Shown in pieces: positions 2,507-9,266 of a DNA stretch of 64,000 bases. Position numbers and translations under genes: made by a program. Positions within the stretch are counted from its first letter, which is position 1. Each line of letters begins with the position of its first letter. The notes under the pieces were generated by a model, which worked only from the letters and a program-made list of their open reading frames with translations, had not been told where the DNA came from and ran no database searches. Source of the stretch: Candidatus Gastranaerophilales bacterium (lineage in GTDB: Bacteria > Cyanobacteriota > Vampirovibrionia > Gastranaerophilales > Gastranaerophilaceae); NCBI GenBank assembly GCA_944327225.1, contig CALVGZ010000007.1, positions 1 through 64,000 on the forward strand. The letters are read 5' to 3'.

Positions 2507-3028
2507 ATGGCAACTAAACAATTTAAAAACGAAAAAATCGAATATTACAAAAAACAATTCGAAAACGCTAAAGTTGCTGTTGTAACAGACTACCGAGGAT
2601 TGTCCGTTGAAGAAATCACAGAACTCAGACGCGGACTTCAAAAAGAGCAAGCAGACCTTACAGTAACAAAAAATACTTTATTTAAAGTTGCATCAAAAGG
2701 CTCAAATTTTGAAGTAATTGAAGAATTAATGCAAGGCCCTACTGCAGTCGCTTTCGGATACGGTGATGAAGTTGCAGCCGCAAAAATCTTAGCAAAATTT
2801 ATCAAAGAAAACAAGAAAGGTGAAATTTTAGGTGCAGTTCTTGATGGCAAGGTACTGTCAAAAGAAGAAGCGACAAAACTTGCTTCTATGCCGTCTAAAG
2901 AAGAACTATACGCAAAAATTCTCGGCTCAGTCAATTCTCCTGCAAGCGGCTTAGTATACTCTATAAATGGAGTTATGTCAGCACTTGTCAGAGCAATTGA
3001 TGCGGTAAGACAACAAAAATCAGCATAA
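2507..3028 (+). CDS. rplJ: 50S ribosomal protein L10
   Basis: L10 forms the base of the ribosomal stalk and carries L7/L12 dimers. The protein has 173 residues. It shows the family features VVTDYRGLSVEEITELRRGL and VTKNTLFKVA near the N-terminus, and the C-terminal helix that binds L12 (NGVMSALVRAIDAVRQQK). The start is the ATG at 2507, placed by AGGAG at 2489-2493; an in-frame TTG at 2471 lies inside the leader structure and is not used. It is followed 29 bp later by rplL. rplK and rplA are not upstream, so the usual larger cluster is broken here. Regulation is by the leader at 2348-2504. Confidence 0.96.
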   Translation: MATKQFKNEKIEYYKKQFENAKVAVVTDYRGLSVEEITELRRGLQKEQADLTVTKNTLFKVASKGSNFEVIEELMQGPTAVAFGYGDEVAAAKILAKFIKENKKGEILGAVLDGKVLSKEEATKLASMPSKEELYAKILGSVNSPASGLVYSINGVMSALVRAIDAVRQQKSA

Positions 3029-3057
3029 AATATTAAATTAAGAAAGGTAATAATAAA

Positions 3058-3435
3058 ATGAGTAATGTAGAAACTATTTTAGAATCAATTGAAAAATTAA
3101 CATTATTAGAAGCAGCAGAACTAGTTAAAGCTATGGAAGAAAAATTCGGTGTATCCGCTGCTGCTCCTGTTGCAGTTGCTGCCGCTCCGGCTGCGGGTGC
3201 TGCTGAAGCTGCTAGTGAAGCTCCTTCCGAAGTAAATGTTATCTTAGCTTCTGCCGGTGCTAACAAGATTCCGGTACTTAAATTAGTTCGTGAAATCACA
3301 GGTCTAGGCTTAAAAGAAGCAAAAGATTTAGTTGACGGAGCTCCAAAACCGTTAAAAGAAGGTGTAAAACCTGAAGAAGCTAAAGAAATTAAAGCTAAAT
3401 TAGAAGAAGCAGGAGCTACAGTTGAAATCAAATAA
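3058..3435 (+). CDS. rplL: 50S ribosomal protein L7/L12
   Basis: L7/L12 is the mobile stalk protein that recruits translational GTPases. It has 125 residues. Its layout is an N-terminal dimerisation helix ([28 protein letters not shown]), an Ala/Pro/Gly hinge at about 33-58, and a C-terminal factor-binding domain ([29 protein letters not shown]). It is translated from an ATG with AGAAAGG just upstream. It is the last gene of the rplJ-rplL unit and is closed by a strong terminator. Confidence 0.97.
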
Positions 3436-3452
3436 TTGATTTTACAAAGTTT

Positions 3453-3485
3453 AAAAAAGACTGTGTTTTATGCACAGTCTTTTTT
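3453..3485 (+). terminator. Terminator of rplJ-rplL
   Basis: The arms AGACTGTG (3458-3465) and CACAGTCT (3473-3480) form a perfect 8 bp stem with a 7 nt loop, followed by a T-run to 3485. Six A residues precede the stem, so it could also act leftward. Confidence 0.88.
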
Positions 3486-3493
3486 ATTTATTG

Positions 3494-3499
3494 TATAAT
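3494..3499 (+). promoter_or_regulatory. -10 element of a probable leaderless transcript
   Basis: TATAAT lies exactly 6 nt before the ATG at 3506, with no room for a ribosome binding site. Transcription from this box would begin at or next to the start codon. The same spacing recurs at other genes in this window. Confidence 0.6.
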
Positions 3500-3505
3500 T
3501 TAGAT

Positions 3506-4666
3506 ATGAAAAATAATGATAAAAAAATAAAAGTAGCTTTTCCACATATGGGAACAATATATGTGGCTTGGGAAATGGCACTAAAAACAATGGGAATAGA
3601 ACCATATATACCGCCATACACCAGTAAAAAAACATTATCTCTCGGCACCAAAAATTCACCTGAAGCAATTTGCTTACCTTACAAATTAATTTTAGGTAAT
3701 TTTATAGAAGCAATAGAAGGCGGAGCCGACTATGTTTCAATGATTACATCACCGGGAATTTGCAGGCTCGGAGAATACGGAAGAAATATTGAGCAAGTAT
3801 TAAAAGAAATGGGCTACAAAACTAATTATATAGAATTAAGTCTTTATGACGGTTTTAAGGGCATGATTGATTATCTTGTCAGATTAAGCGGATCAAAAAA
3901 TTATTTTAAAATTTTTCATGCCATCTATCTTGCAGTAAGAACTGTTTTTGCGGTTGACGAACTTCAAAATTTTCTTTCTTATCACAGAGCAAGAGAAATA
4001 AATAAAGGAGATAGCGAAAAAGCCTTTAACAAAGCAATTAAATTAATAAGAGAATCAAGAAATGCTATAGAACTATCAAAAGCATTGAAAAAAGGTTTAA
4101 GCTTAATTTCAAATGTAGAAATAGACAAAAACAGAGACATTTTACATGTTGACCTAACCGGTGAAATTTATATCGTTAATGATGAATTTTCCAATCAAAA
4201 CATGGAAAGAGAACTGGGTGCTATGGGTGTTCAAGTCAGACGTTCTCTGACCGTATCATCATTTTTAAAAGATGCTATTATTCCAAAATTATTTAAAAAA
4301 GGTGAAACCCACCTTGAGCGTGCATACAGACTAGCAAAACCATACCTAATAAGGGACATCGGTGGAGATGCACTTGAATGTATCTCAGATGTATTATACG
4401 CAAAAGAAAGAAATATAGACGGTTTAATACATGTCTCTCCATTTACTTGCATGCCCGAAATTATGAGCCAAAATATATTTCCAAAAATGAGAGAAGATGT
4501 AAACCTACCAATTTTAACACTCATAATGGATGAACAAACCGGAAAAGCAGGATATATCACAAGATTAGAAGCCTTTGTTGATTTAATGAGAAGAAAAAAA
4601 ATGAAATCAAAAATCAACAATAATAAAATGAACACAACCGAAGAAAAAACTGCCCAAAAAGTATAA
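3506..4666 (+). CDS. 2-hydroxyacyl-CoA dehydratase/CoA-protein-activase-like protein (COG3581-like)
   Basis: A 386-residue protein resembling the activase-related family of (R)-2-hydroxyacyl-CoA dehydratases. Visible signatures are FPHMGTIYVAWEM at the N-terminus, SPEAICLPYKLILGNFIEA, GADYVSMITSPGICRLGEYG, SPFTCMPEIM, and TGKAGYITRLEAFVDLM near the end. Conserved cysteines in CLPYK, GICR and FTCMPE are candidate iron-sulfur ligands. No partner BadF-type ATPase or dehydratase subunit is next to it, so the exact reaction is unknown. The start is the ATG at 3506; the open frame extends upstream into the rplL terminator (to 3470) but that part is implausible. The C-terminal tail is Lys/Asn-rich and probably disordered. 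Confidence 0.75.
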   Translation: MKNNDKKIKVAFPHMGTIYVAWEMALKTMGIEPYIPPYTSKKTLSLGTKNSPEAICLPYKLILGNFIEAIEGGADYVSMITSPGICRLGEYGRNIEQVLKEMGYKTNYIELSLYDGFKGMIDYLVRLSGSKNYFKIFHAIYLAVRTVFAVDELQNFLSYHRAREINKGDSEKAFNKAIKLIRESRNAIELSKALKKGLSLISNVEIDKNRDILHVDLTGEIYIVNDEFSNQNMERELGAMGVQVRRSLTVSSFLKDAIIPKLFKKGETHLERAYRLAKPYLIRDIGGDALECISDVLYAKERNIDGLIHVSPFTCMPEIMSQNIFPKMREDVNLPILTLIMDEQTGKAGYITRLEAFVDLMRRKKMKSKINNNKMNTTEEKTAQKV

Positions 4667-5694: not shown

Positions 5695-5749
5695 TTTACT
5701 AATAAAACACAAAAAATAAATAAAAGCTGTGTTAGTGGGTAATAATAAT

Positions 5750-7243
5750 ATGAATGAAAATTACAAATCTTCATCAGATAAAGGTTTAGTAAATTATTTT
5801 GAAGATATAAATTTATCAAATATTGATAATAATCTGTCAAATTTTATTTCAATTATATCCGAAAGCATGAAAAGAACAATTGATAATGAAATATCAAACT
5901 ACGATATAGAATTATTTAACAAATTTATAGATAAAAAAAGTTTAAATATAGAAAATAACTATAAAGCAATATATGCTTTTGCTTTATATAGCATCTATCA
6001 AAAAAAGAAAAACCACAAACTTCATGTTATATACATTAATAAATTTTTATTATCGGATTTTTACGAAAAATTAAAACCTCTATATGATTTTCTTAACATA
6101 AAAGCAGAAATTAACCTAAACTATGATGATATGATTGAAGACAAAAACAACATAAAAACAAAAACGGAAATATATAAAGGGGATATTATTTTTGCAAATC
6201 TGGAAGAATTTTTACATGACTATGTAGTAAATATAGATATAGATAAAATTTCAGACAGAATTGATTTTAATTTTGATACAGCTTTCATTTTTGATATAGA
6301 CAATGTATTATATGACAGATACGAACATACATTTAAAATAAACGGTTATAATCTCAAAAGAAACGAACTAAAATTAAAAGACTTCTTTAAAAAATACAAA
6401 ACAATTCTTGGAGTTTCACCAGGTCTATTTTTTGAAAAATTATCACAAGCAAGAAAATATGATTTAAAAATAGAAAATCTTCCAGACAAAAATAAATTAT
6501 TGGAAAAAAATAAAGAAATTAAAAATCTATATTTTGTAAATAAACAAGAAAAAATTAAAAATATAGTACAAATCACAAAAGAATTGTCAGCCAAAAATAA
6601 AACAATAATAATAGATGCTAATGATGATTACGACTTAGAACTTTTAAAAAAATATCTAAATAATAACAAAATTAAATATGATATAATCAATAACTTTAAA
6701 ATTTCTAATAAAAAAATAATTGCACAGATGTTAATCGAAAAAAAAGTAACAATTCTTGCAAACCTAACTGACATATATATAAAACCAAAACTTGGCGGAG
6801 ATTATGAATATCTGGCTAAAATCAAAACATCTTCATACGGCATAGAACAAAATACAAACTTCTACAGAGAAAAATATAAATCAGAACTAAAAAAACAAAA
6901 AGAAAAAGCCGAACTAACCAAACAAAACATAATCAAAAATAATTCAATATATTTATTTTTTACTTCTAAATATCTGGAAATTAAAAACGAATATTTAACA
7001 ATCAACAACTATAGAGAATACATACAAAACGAAAATATCACAATATATAATTGCCCTGAAGATGAATTATATAAAAAATTTCACCTAAATAATCTTTCAA
7101 TTCTGCATTCATCTATGGATGAAAAAAATGAAAGTTTATTTAAAATTATAAATTTATACACTTTTTATTTAAGAAAATTTCTATTAAAAAAAATTATTAT
7201 GGAAAAACACAAATATCTAGAATATACTGTTAGTGACAATTAA
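5750..7243 (+). CDS. Degenerate SecA-like protein (pseudo-ATPase)
   Basis: About 497 residues that follow the order of SecA motor-domain landmarks while losing the catalytic ones. SecA pattern: IYAFALYSIYQ then HVIYINKFLLSDFYEKLKPLYDFLNI (after motif I), GDIIFANLEEFLHDYV (the TNNEFGFDYL region), FIFDIDNVLYDRYEH (the DEVDSILIDEAR region), a stretch like the linker into the second motor domain, and VTILANLTDIYIKPKLGG (the TNMAGRGTDIKLGG region). Walker A is absent (IENNYK in place of GEGKT), Walker B has DIDN for DEVD, and the arginine finger is lost. It is much shorter than SecA (800-900). The frame is intact, so it looks like a repurposed non-ATPase rather than a decaying gene. GTG at 5729 is an alternative start. 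Confidence 0.6.
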   Translation: MNENYKSSSDKGLVNYFEDINLSNIDNNLSNFISIISESMKRTIDNEISNYDIELFNKFIDKKSLNIENNYKAIYAFALYSIYQKKKNHKLHVIYINKFLLSDFYEKLKPLYDFLNIKAEINLNYDDMIEDKNNIKTKTEIYKGDIIFANLEEFLHDYVVNIDIDKISDRIDFNFDTAFIFDIDNVLYDRYEHTFKINGYNLKRNELKLKDFFKKYKTILGVSPGLFFEKLSQARKYDLKIENLPDKNKLLEKNKEIKNLYFVNKQEKIKNIVQITKELSAKNKTIIIDANDDYDLELLKKYLNNNKIKYDIINNFKISNKKIIAQMLIEKKVTILANLTDIYIKPKLGGDYEYLAKIKTSSYGIEQNTNFYREKYKSELKKQKEKAELTKQNIIKNNSIYLFFTSKYLEIKNEYLTINNYREYIQNENITIYNCPEDELYKKFHLNNLSILHSSMDEKNESLFKIINLYTFYLRKFLLKKIIMEKHKYLEYTVSDN

Positions 7244-7256
7244 TAAGAGAATAATG

Positions 7257-8252
7257 ATGACAAAAAGTTTTTTTAAATACAAAAATACAGAATGGACCTT
7301 GCCCTTACTTTTTCAATATGACGCCATTTGGGGTGCTATATATAAAACATTAAAAATGTATAATATAAAACCGCCGAAAGTAAATCTTTTCGGATCTCCC
7401 TCAGTTATATGGGCGGGAGGAAGAATGCCCGCATTATTCGGTAATTTTAATAAAGAAACTTTAAGCAAATGGTTTGGGTACATTAATGATTTAAACGCTT
7501 TTCCGACATTTACTTTTACATCAACAACCCTTACAAAAGATGATTTAAATGATAAATATGCAAATTTTATTTTAGAGACCTCATTTGAATATAATGCAAG
7601 ATACATTGTATACTCTGATTATTTAAGAGATTATATTAAAGAAAAAAATCCTGATGCAATAGTCATTGCTTCAGTTATAAAACCCAATTGCAGGTTTCAA
7701 GGTCCCGATAAAATTGAAGAACCAACAATTGAAAATGAAACAAATTACTATAACAAGTTGCTGAAAGAATACGATGTAGTTGTTGTAAGACCTGAATACT
7801 CTAAAGATATTTTACCATATCATCCGGAGTACATAGATGATATCTCAAGATTAGAAGTTTTAATTAATCAACCATGCATAAAAAACTGTCCTAAAATGCC
7901 TGAGCATTATAAGCATTTAGAAAAATTTAATTTAAATAGCAACCACAACGGGGAGTTTATTTGCATAAGAGTAAATATACCATGTACTATTTTGTACGAA
8001 AACAATCTTATACATGATCAAAAAACAGTAGAAAGACTTGTAGACATAGGTGTAAATAATCTTAAATTACAAGGAAGAAGTAATGGAATAACTTTGGAAT
8101 CATTAATGCTTATATTAGCTGATCAAATGTTTAACAGAGACGGTAACAATGAACTTATTATTAACGCAATGGAAAATAATCTGGGTTGGGAAATCAATAA
8201 TTTTAATCAAATAATAGGCGAACAAAAACAGCTTAGTTCACCCTATGCGTAG
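7257..8252 (+). CDS. Uncharacterised TIM-barrel-like protein, twin 1
   Basis: A 331-residue soluble protein, paralogous to the next gene. I do not recognise a named family with certainty. Segments such as VVVVRPEYSKDI and the cysteine motif CIKNC, with a further Cys-x6-Cys pair shared by both twins, faintly recall peptidase-U32/UbiU-V type barrels that hold a 4Fe-4S cluster. The ATG at 7257 is chosen because AAGAGA lies 6 nt upstream and because MTKSFFKYKNTEW then aligns with MTNKINKYENIEW of twin 2. ATGs at 7254 and 7233 are also in frame; the latter overlaps the SecA-like gene. Residues 91-226 are encoded by DNA identical to twin 2. Confidence 0.65.
   Translation: MTKSFFKYKNTEWTLPLLFQYDAIWGAIYKTLKMYNIKPPKVNLFGSPSVIWAGGRMPALFGNFNKETLSKWFGYINDLNAFPTFTFTSTTLTKDDLNDKYANFILETSFEYNARYIVYSDYLRDYIKEKNPDAIVIASVIKPNCRFQGPDKIEEPTIENETNYYNKLLKEYDVVVVRPEYSKDILPYHPEYIDDISRLEVLINQPCIKNCPKMPEHYKHLEKFNLNSNHNGEFICIRVNIPCTILYENNLIHDQKTVERLVDIGVNNLKLQGRSNGITLESLMLILADQMFNRDGNNELIINAMENNLGWEINNFNQIIGEQKQLSSPYA
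7527..7934. repeat. 408 bp perfect direct repeat, copy 1
   Basis: This stretch inside twin gene 1 is identical base for base, as far as I can see by eye, to 8535-8942 in twin gene 2, exactly 1008 bp away. Both flanks differ at about half of the amino acid positions. It spans 136 codons and stays in frame. Confidence 0.9.
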
Positions 8253-8264
8253 GAAAACAATAAA

Positions 8265-9266
8265 ATGACAAATAAAATTAATAAATATGAAAATATCGAA
8301 TGGGATATAAACCTGCTATTTCAATTTGAAACAATCTGGGGAACAATTTATAGAACTTTTGAATCGTACAATTTTCCTGTGCCAAACGTTAATTTATACG
8401 GAACCCCTTCAAATATCTGGGCAGGCGGACAGATTCCGGGTTTATACGGAGAATTTAAAAAAGAAACACTTGTAAATTTATTCAACTACTTAAAAGAATT
8501 AAATGCAAAACCAGCATTTAATTTTACAAATACTACCCTTACAAAAGATGATTTAAATGATAAATATGCAAATTTTATTTTAGAGACCTCATTTGAATAT
8601 AATGCAAGATACATTGTATACTCTGATTATTTAAGAGATTATATTAAAGAAAAAAATCCTGATGCAATAGTCATTGCTTCAGTTATAAAACCCAATTGCA
8701 GGTTTCAAGGTCCCGATAAAATTGAAGAACCAACAATTGAAAATGAAACAAATTACTATAACAAGTTGCTGAAAGAATACGATGTAGTTGTTGTAAGACC
8801 TGAATACTCTAAAGATATTTTACCATATCATCCGGAGTACATAGATGATATCTCAAGATTAGAAGTTTTAATTAATCAACCATGCATAAAAAACTGTCCT
8901 AAAATGCCTGAGCATTATAAGCATTTAGAAAAATTTAATTTAGACGCTAATCAAACTCATAACTTTACATGTGTTATGCAAAATATCCCATGCGAAATAT
9001 TATTCGAAAATAATTTAATACACAGTCAAGAAATAATAGAAAAACTTGTAAACAACGGCATAAAACACATAATTTTAACAGCAAGACAAAATAACTCGCA
9101 CCATTCTATACTATGTGAAATTTTTCAAACAATGTTTGATACGACAGGAAGTAATCATTTATTAATAACCGAAGCACTAACCTTTCATTTAAGAGAAGAA
9201 ATAAAATATTTCAATCAAATAATAGGAGATATCGAAGGACTTACTTCACCATTTACACTGGCGTAA
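8265..9266 (+). CDS. Uncharacterised TIM-barrel-like protein, twin 2
   Basis: A 333-residue paralogue of the preceding gene, separated from it by 12 bp, with AGGA upstream of its ATG. Its N-terminal 90 residues (WDINLLFQFETIWGTIYRTF, NLYGTPSNIWAGGQIPGLYG) and C-terminal 107 residues are only about half identical to twin 1. The middle (from TLTKDDLND to EKFNL) is identical. Conserved cysteines include 207 and 211 (CIKNC) and a later pair in FTCVMQNIPCEILFENN; these could bind an iron-sulfur cluster. The last 21 bp overlap the convergent maf gene. No function can be assigned. Confidence 0.65.
   Translation: MTNKINKYENIEWDINLLFQFETIWGTIYRTFESYNFPVPNVNLYGTPSNIWAGGQIPGLYGEFKKETLVNLFNYLKELNAKPAFNFTNTTLTKDDLNDKYANFILETSFEYNARYIVYSDYLRDYIKEKNPDAIVIASVIKPNCRFQGPDKIEEPTIENETNYYNKLLKEYDVVVVRPEYSKDILPYHPEYIDDISRLEVLINQPCIKNCPKMPEHYKHLEKFNLDANQTHNFTCVMQNIPCEILFENNLIHSQEIIEKLVNNGIKHIILTARQNNSHHSILCEIFQTMFDTTGSNHLLITEALTFHLREEIKYFNQIIGDIEGLTSPFTLA
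8535..8942. repeat. 408 bp perfect direct repeat, copy 2
   Basis: This is the second copy of the block described at 7527-7934. The abrupt edges (identity starts at ACCCTTAC and stops after TTTAATTTA) and the lack of any synonymous change point to recent gene conversion between the twins. Confidence 0.9.

Follow-up and report, generated by a model that had tools for sequence, protein, structure and literature searches.

Old tandem paralogues of a U32-like protein family with a probably recurrently converted core in a Candidatus Gastranaerophilales genome

The A/B locus and its genomic neighbourhood

The window analysed is a stretch of 64,000 nucleotides of a Candidatus Gastranaerophilales bacterium, an uncultured, gut-dwelling relative of the cyanobacteria (positions 1 to 64,000 of the forward strand of contig CALVGZ010000007.1, assembly GCA_944327225.1). 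Two intact genes, referred to here as A and B, are arranged in tandem downstream of a SecA-like gene. The following features were distinguished at this locus:

5729..7243, plus strand: SecA-like gene, alignable to the genome's own SecA (905 aa) in both nucleotide-binding folds
7257..8252, plus strand: gene A, intact ORF encoding an unnamed U32-like protein of 331 aa, with the C-terminal GVxxLKLQGR motif kept
7257..7526, plus strand: 5' part of A, diverged (54% protein identity to B), clusters with A orthologues
7527..7934, plus strand: core of A (aa 91-226), homogenised with and identical to the core of B; probable donor side
7935..8249, plus strand: 3' part of A, diverged (41% protein identity to B), clusters with A orthologues
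8265..9266, plus strand: gene B, intact ORF of 333 aa, tandem paralogue of A, in which KLQGR is lost (IILTARQ)
8265..8534, plus strand: 5' part of B, diverged, clusters with B orthologues
8535..8942, plus strand: homogenised core of B, identical to the core of A; probable recipient side
8943..9263, plus strand: 3' part of B, diverged, clusters with B orthologues

An earlier, sequence-only reading of this DNA had described the two cores as identical, with no synonymous change, and their flanks as only about half identical in protein sequence. Both descriptions are accurate. Outward extension from the reported start showed 7527-7934 and 8535-8942 (offset 1008) to be an identical run of exactly 408 bp with zero differences, and the protein identity of A and B amounts to 49/90 residues (54%) on the 5' (N-terminal) side of the block, 136/136 within it and 43/104 (41%) on the 3' (C-terminal) side. 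The synonymous divergence (dS) between the two genes is approximately 2, i.e., saturated, in each flank. The block, which has 77.7 synonymous sites, shows a dS of 0, and from 0 changes at ~78 synonymous sites we estimate an upper limit (95% bound) of ~0.04. The longest run of matching polymorphic sites in the comparison of A with B is 213, the maximum obtained by shuffling being 31 (site permutation, 5000). Within the 1.73-Mb genome the block is present in two copies, both in the A/B genes, and none was found elsewhere. The same reading had called the block in frame and sharp-edged: its edges do lie at codon boundaries in the window, but the reading frame has no special meaning, since the edges of the corresponding 361-bp block of a related genome (G057) do not.

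Alignment with the genome's own SecA indicates that the neighbouring gene is a degenerate SecA paralogue or remnant. The two nucleotide-binding folds are common to both proteins, whereas the window's gene has approximately half the length, is devoid of Walker A (GEGKT), carries DIDN in place of the Walker B sequence DEVD, and has neither the preprotein-binding part nor the C-terminal part. The SecA-like gene was identified in 7 of 28 congeners, and every one of these seven has the twin family as well (Fisher p 7e-4, a value that ignores kinship).

Members of the A/B family are encoded by 12/28 genomes of the genus. The genomes used for the comparison all seem to be drafts, for the most part assembled from metagenomes. 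Pairs or trios of the genes were found in (i) G000, i.e., this genome (sequences Aw/Bw of the window), (ii) G057 (L021; A21/B21), (iii) G117 (L022; A22/B22), (iv) G103 (L023; A23/B23), (v) G098 (L050) and (vi) G102 (L051). Several congeners share the gene order oppF - SecA-like - A - B - maf - tsf. The locus comprises a DUF2229/CoA-activase-like gene, a gene for an oppF-type ABC ATPase, often the SecA-like gene, and one to three copies of the family, followed on the opposite strand by maf and tsf at the loci where the contigs permit reading. Five further members of the family, two of whose three loci (L015, L016 and L017) are tandem pairs, are present in other surroundings in G023, a genome of another genus. 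The member encoded on the minus strand of L055 (G109; gene at 7851) has a long Pro/Gln-rich C-terminal tail and a total length of ~392 aa.

Affiliation of the A and B proteins

The A and B proteins had no match above the cut-off in Pfam or NCBIfam, only weak matches to unknowns in PHROGs, and only chance matches among PDB sequences. For the Pfam U32 family (PF01136), the window proteins were without a match and three relatives reached 14.4, 12.3 and 15.9 bits, the cut-off being 22.4; the U32 link in Pfam is sub-threshold (E 0.008-0.1). In an alignment of 29 members, the cysteines C207, C211 and C236 are conserved in 29, 28 and 29 sequences, respectively, and G46, W52, N103 and N204 are also near-invariant. 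The published four-cysteine pattern of U32 proteins, CX6CX15CX3/4C (PMC6747719), was not found in the family, which has three cysteines with other spacing.

Comparison of the family profile with the genome's own 600-aa U32 protein yielded an hhalign score of 46.7 over 185 columns; the alignment is collinear and ends at (K/L)xxGR. As controls, 30 column shuffles gave a maximum of 27.9, and unrelated families scored below 20. The KLQGR motif is lost in the B lineage of all five species, and relatives encoded on human faecal contigs have NFKIEGR, which is nearer to the U32 form. The AlphaFold models of A and B (mean pLDDT 71.6, pTM 0.74) contain strands that alternate with helices, and their quality is low near the cysteines. 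Foldseek searches with both models retrieved generic barrels only; for A, the U32 protein Mk0906 (5d88) was placed at rank 26 (TMt 0.51). Judging from profile and motif, the family looks like a remote U32-like (beta/alpha) barrel with a conserved three-cysteine site, even though the formal U32 tests (Pfam cut-off and four-cysteine spacing) failed, and its proteins are possibly metal-binding. Several extra weak U32-domain matches were obtained in one congener (G106:C74, C35 and C107; ORFs of ~400-420 aa), which may represent another U32-like expansion.

The viral contigs encode no relative of A or B, and the plasmids gave no match. Distant relatives were detected in GenBank contigs from human faeces named 'Bacteriophage sp.' (MT836087, MT836355 and MT835898); the corresponding features lie at L107 2624-3541, L108 about 3001-3900 and L109 about 3001-3858. 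The view that these relatives are phage genes was not supported: MT836087, the one contig read of this short, unverified set, carries bacterial housekeeping genes, e.g., that for DNA polymerase I, and is probably mislabelled bacterial DNA. The family extends to Firmicutes-like gut contigs.

Segment phylogenies and the cores of sister species

In the trees of the N and C segments, the A sequences of G000, G057 and G117 form one group and the B sequences another (moderate support), whereas in the tree of the middle (M) segment Aw+Bw, A21+B21 and A22+B22 are sisters, each at 97-100%. In AU tests the species-wise tree was rejected for the N segment (dlnL 58) and the C segment (dlnL 95), and the paralogue-wise tree for the M segment (dlnL 301). 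According to these tests the tract is flanked by regions of other phylogeny, a hallmark of conversion. Within a species the core is closer to that of the partner gene than to its orthologues, synonymous sites included, as in concerted evolution, and recurrence is apparent from the M tree, where G000, G057 and G117 each form a within-species pair, and from the short patch in G098. The single-copy congener c97 was also considered as a product of crossover between A and B; this was rejected, the segment trees showing that it is not an A/B chimera.

The pairs of the sister species differ in the extent and degree of homogenisation. The G057 pair has an identical core of 361 bp spanning alignment columns 102-221 (columns 93-228 in the window) and an extra identical patch of 26 bp in the N part. 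The core of the G117 pair is mostly 93-98% identical, with one dip to ~70%, and the G098 pair has a shorter patch, with 98% identity in columns 151-180 (permutation p 4e-4). For the G103 pair (A23/B23) the permutation test revealed no significant run; the protein identity of this pair is 71% in the core, and 45% and 34% in the ends. The within-species core dS equals 0 in the window, 0.06 in G057 and 0.28 in G117, and is ~0.75 in two older pairs; between species, the dS of orthologous cores ranges from 0.71 to 1.75. For the window and G057 the values are 0.71 for the core and 1.38 for oppF. On this scale the window lineage underwent its last conversion recently compared with its separation from G057, the dS of the block being below ~0.04.

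Tree topology and synonymous divergence together show that the 408-bp cores of the window were homogenised by recombination after the split from the sampled relatives, and that at least two sister species (G057 and G117) independently went through the same homogenisation, with a shorter patch in G098. The recent gene conversion proposed in the sequence-only reading is strongly supported by locus, edges, trees and dS in the related genomes. The comparison of the locus in relatives, which that reading had suggested, showed that the pair recurs at the same locus, that its core is homogenised between different edges, and that the trees of the middle and of the ends contradict each other.

The direction of conversion was deduced from alignment columns 109-150, where nine diagnostic residues separate the outgroup sequences A23/c98_2 from B23/c98_3. 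Bw and B21 are A-type at most of these sites (exceptions: 142 and 148); B22 retains the B-type residues M122 and S143 and has residues of its own at 145 and 150. A direction from A to B, with A as the donor, is thus indicated at least for the 5' half of the block.

Origin of the identical cores and comparison with known systems

In our interpretation, to which we assign a probability of approximately 0.82, A and B are old tandem paralogues of a U32-like three-cysteine family that undergo recurrent partial gene conversion in the core only and may act as a pair. The homogenisation would proceed by recombination of the RecA type, the direct repeats lying ~1 kb apart. Only the core would be affected, as purifying selection maintains there the similarity that recombination requires, the ends having drifted too far apart for this, and each conversion event would reset the identity of the cores and so prolong the process. 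No other part of the family is as well conserved as the converted block, and conversion therefore probably continues wherever the copies are still sufficiently alike. The two proteins could form a working pair, perhaps a heteromer like UbiU-UbiV, with a common metal- or Fe-S-binding core and an altered C-terminal site in B.

The main alternative to such similarity-limited recombination is selection for an identical core in partner subunits: A and B would need the same central half-barrel (for a shared partner, an interface or a cofactor site), and conversion events that make the cores identical again would be favoured while the ends specialise. The modular design suggested in the sequence-only reading, with a constant core and variable ends, is compatible with the data. 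This would agree with the finding that, despite differing edges, homogenisation affects much the same portion of the protein in three species, and with the location in the homogenised region of most invariant residues, including C207 and C211; furthermore, long-lasting concerted evolution in prokaryotes mostly affects subunits of complexes (PMC6053082). However, even A23/B23, a pair that is without a significant run and whose cores stayed distinct, is most alike in the core, so simple recombination mechanics would suffice, and we put such selection forward only tentatively. A more elaborate form of the idea, which we consider improbable, is that the ATPase-dead SecA remnant and the A and B barrels make up a dedicated complex in gut Gastranaerophilales, in which A would retain the ancestral site, B would be a pseudo-enzyme, and conversion would keep the shared core identical while the ends specialise.

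Apart from selection, identical cores might originate from a collapsed or chimeric assembly, an option that the sequence-only reading had left standing beside conversion. The assembly is a draft, and 408 bp is longer than a short read; moreover, two contigs of the congener G114 (L052, positions 1-127, and L053, positions 6442-6568) end in the core with an exact 127-base overlap, which marks an assembly-graph break; a homogenised core or repeat is possible there too. A graph assembler can misjoin flanks but normally would not erase real differences, and the path through the repeat is correct because the two flanks of each gene, N and C, have concordant phylogenies, giving the same A/B grouping. 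As the pattern also recurs in separate assemblies, in which the core sequences and edges differ, we reject the artefact as an account of the overall pattern and rate it as very unlikely. The 100% identity of the core could equally suggest youth of the genes themselves, i.e., a very recent duplication of a single gene whose ends diverge fast, but the flanks of A and of B are each nearer to orthologues of other species than to each other and are saturated at synonymous sites; this scenario is refuted by the segment trees and has a negligible probability. Hardly any weight can be given to extreme nucleotide-level constraint (e.g., an RNA element) in place of conversion: the core is indeed the most conserved part of the family, yet orthologous cores vary freely at synonymous sites, over the dS range given above, and cores of the same genome do not, so the synonymous differences between species refute it.

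Partial gene conversion between A and B, the reading preferred here, provides a clean, dated case of concerted evolution restricted to the middle of a gene. The sister species represent different ages of the process, which makes the tract edges, the direction and the similarity needed for its continuation measurable. Trees or ortholog calls based on the core of the A/B family in these genomes would mislead. The case concerns a family without a Pfam, NCBIfam or PDB match that adjoins a degenerate SecA, and among the papers searched none was retrieved that names Gastranaerophilales and gene conversion together.

Three known systems are relevant for comparison. UbiU-UbiV is an adjacent U32 pair forming a heterodimer (PMC6747719), and by this precedent a pairing of A with B is plausible. 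Features in common with U32 proteins and UbiU-UbiV are the collinear profile, including (K/L)xxGR after the cysteine-bearing region, the predicted barrel elements and the adjacency of the paralogues; in contrast, A and B fall below the Pfam cut-off and have a CX3C...C three-cysteine spacing. Long-lasting recurrent concerted evolution has been described for 26 genes in prokaryotes (PMC6053082). As in those genes, paralogues from one species resemble each other more than they resemble orthologues, at synonymous sites as well, but A and B evolve in concert in the middle only, their ends form separate lineages, and the family is uncharacterised.

Domain-limited conversion between old duplicates was reported for mtrA-1/mtrA-2 of methanogens (PMC4632066), so the phenomenon itself is known, and A and B are genes new to it. 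Like A and B, mtrA-1 and mtrA-2 are an old pair within one operon, with a shared domain that was repeatedly converted and another part that differs. In the mtrA case, however, the process is of great age and a fusion has given one of the copies an additional transmembrane domain (PMC4632066), whereas A and B have the same architecture in both copies, are diverged at both ends, and are found within one bacterial genus.
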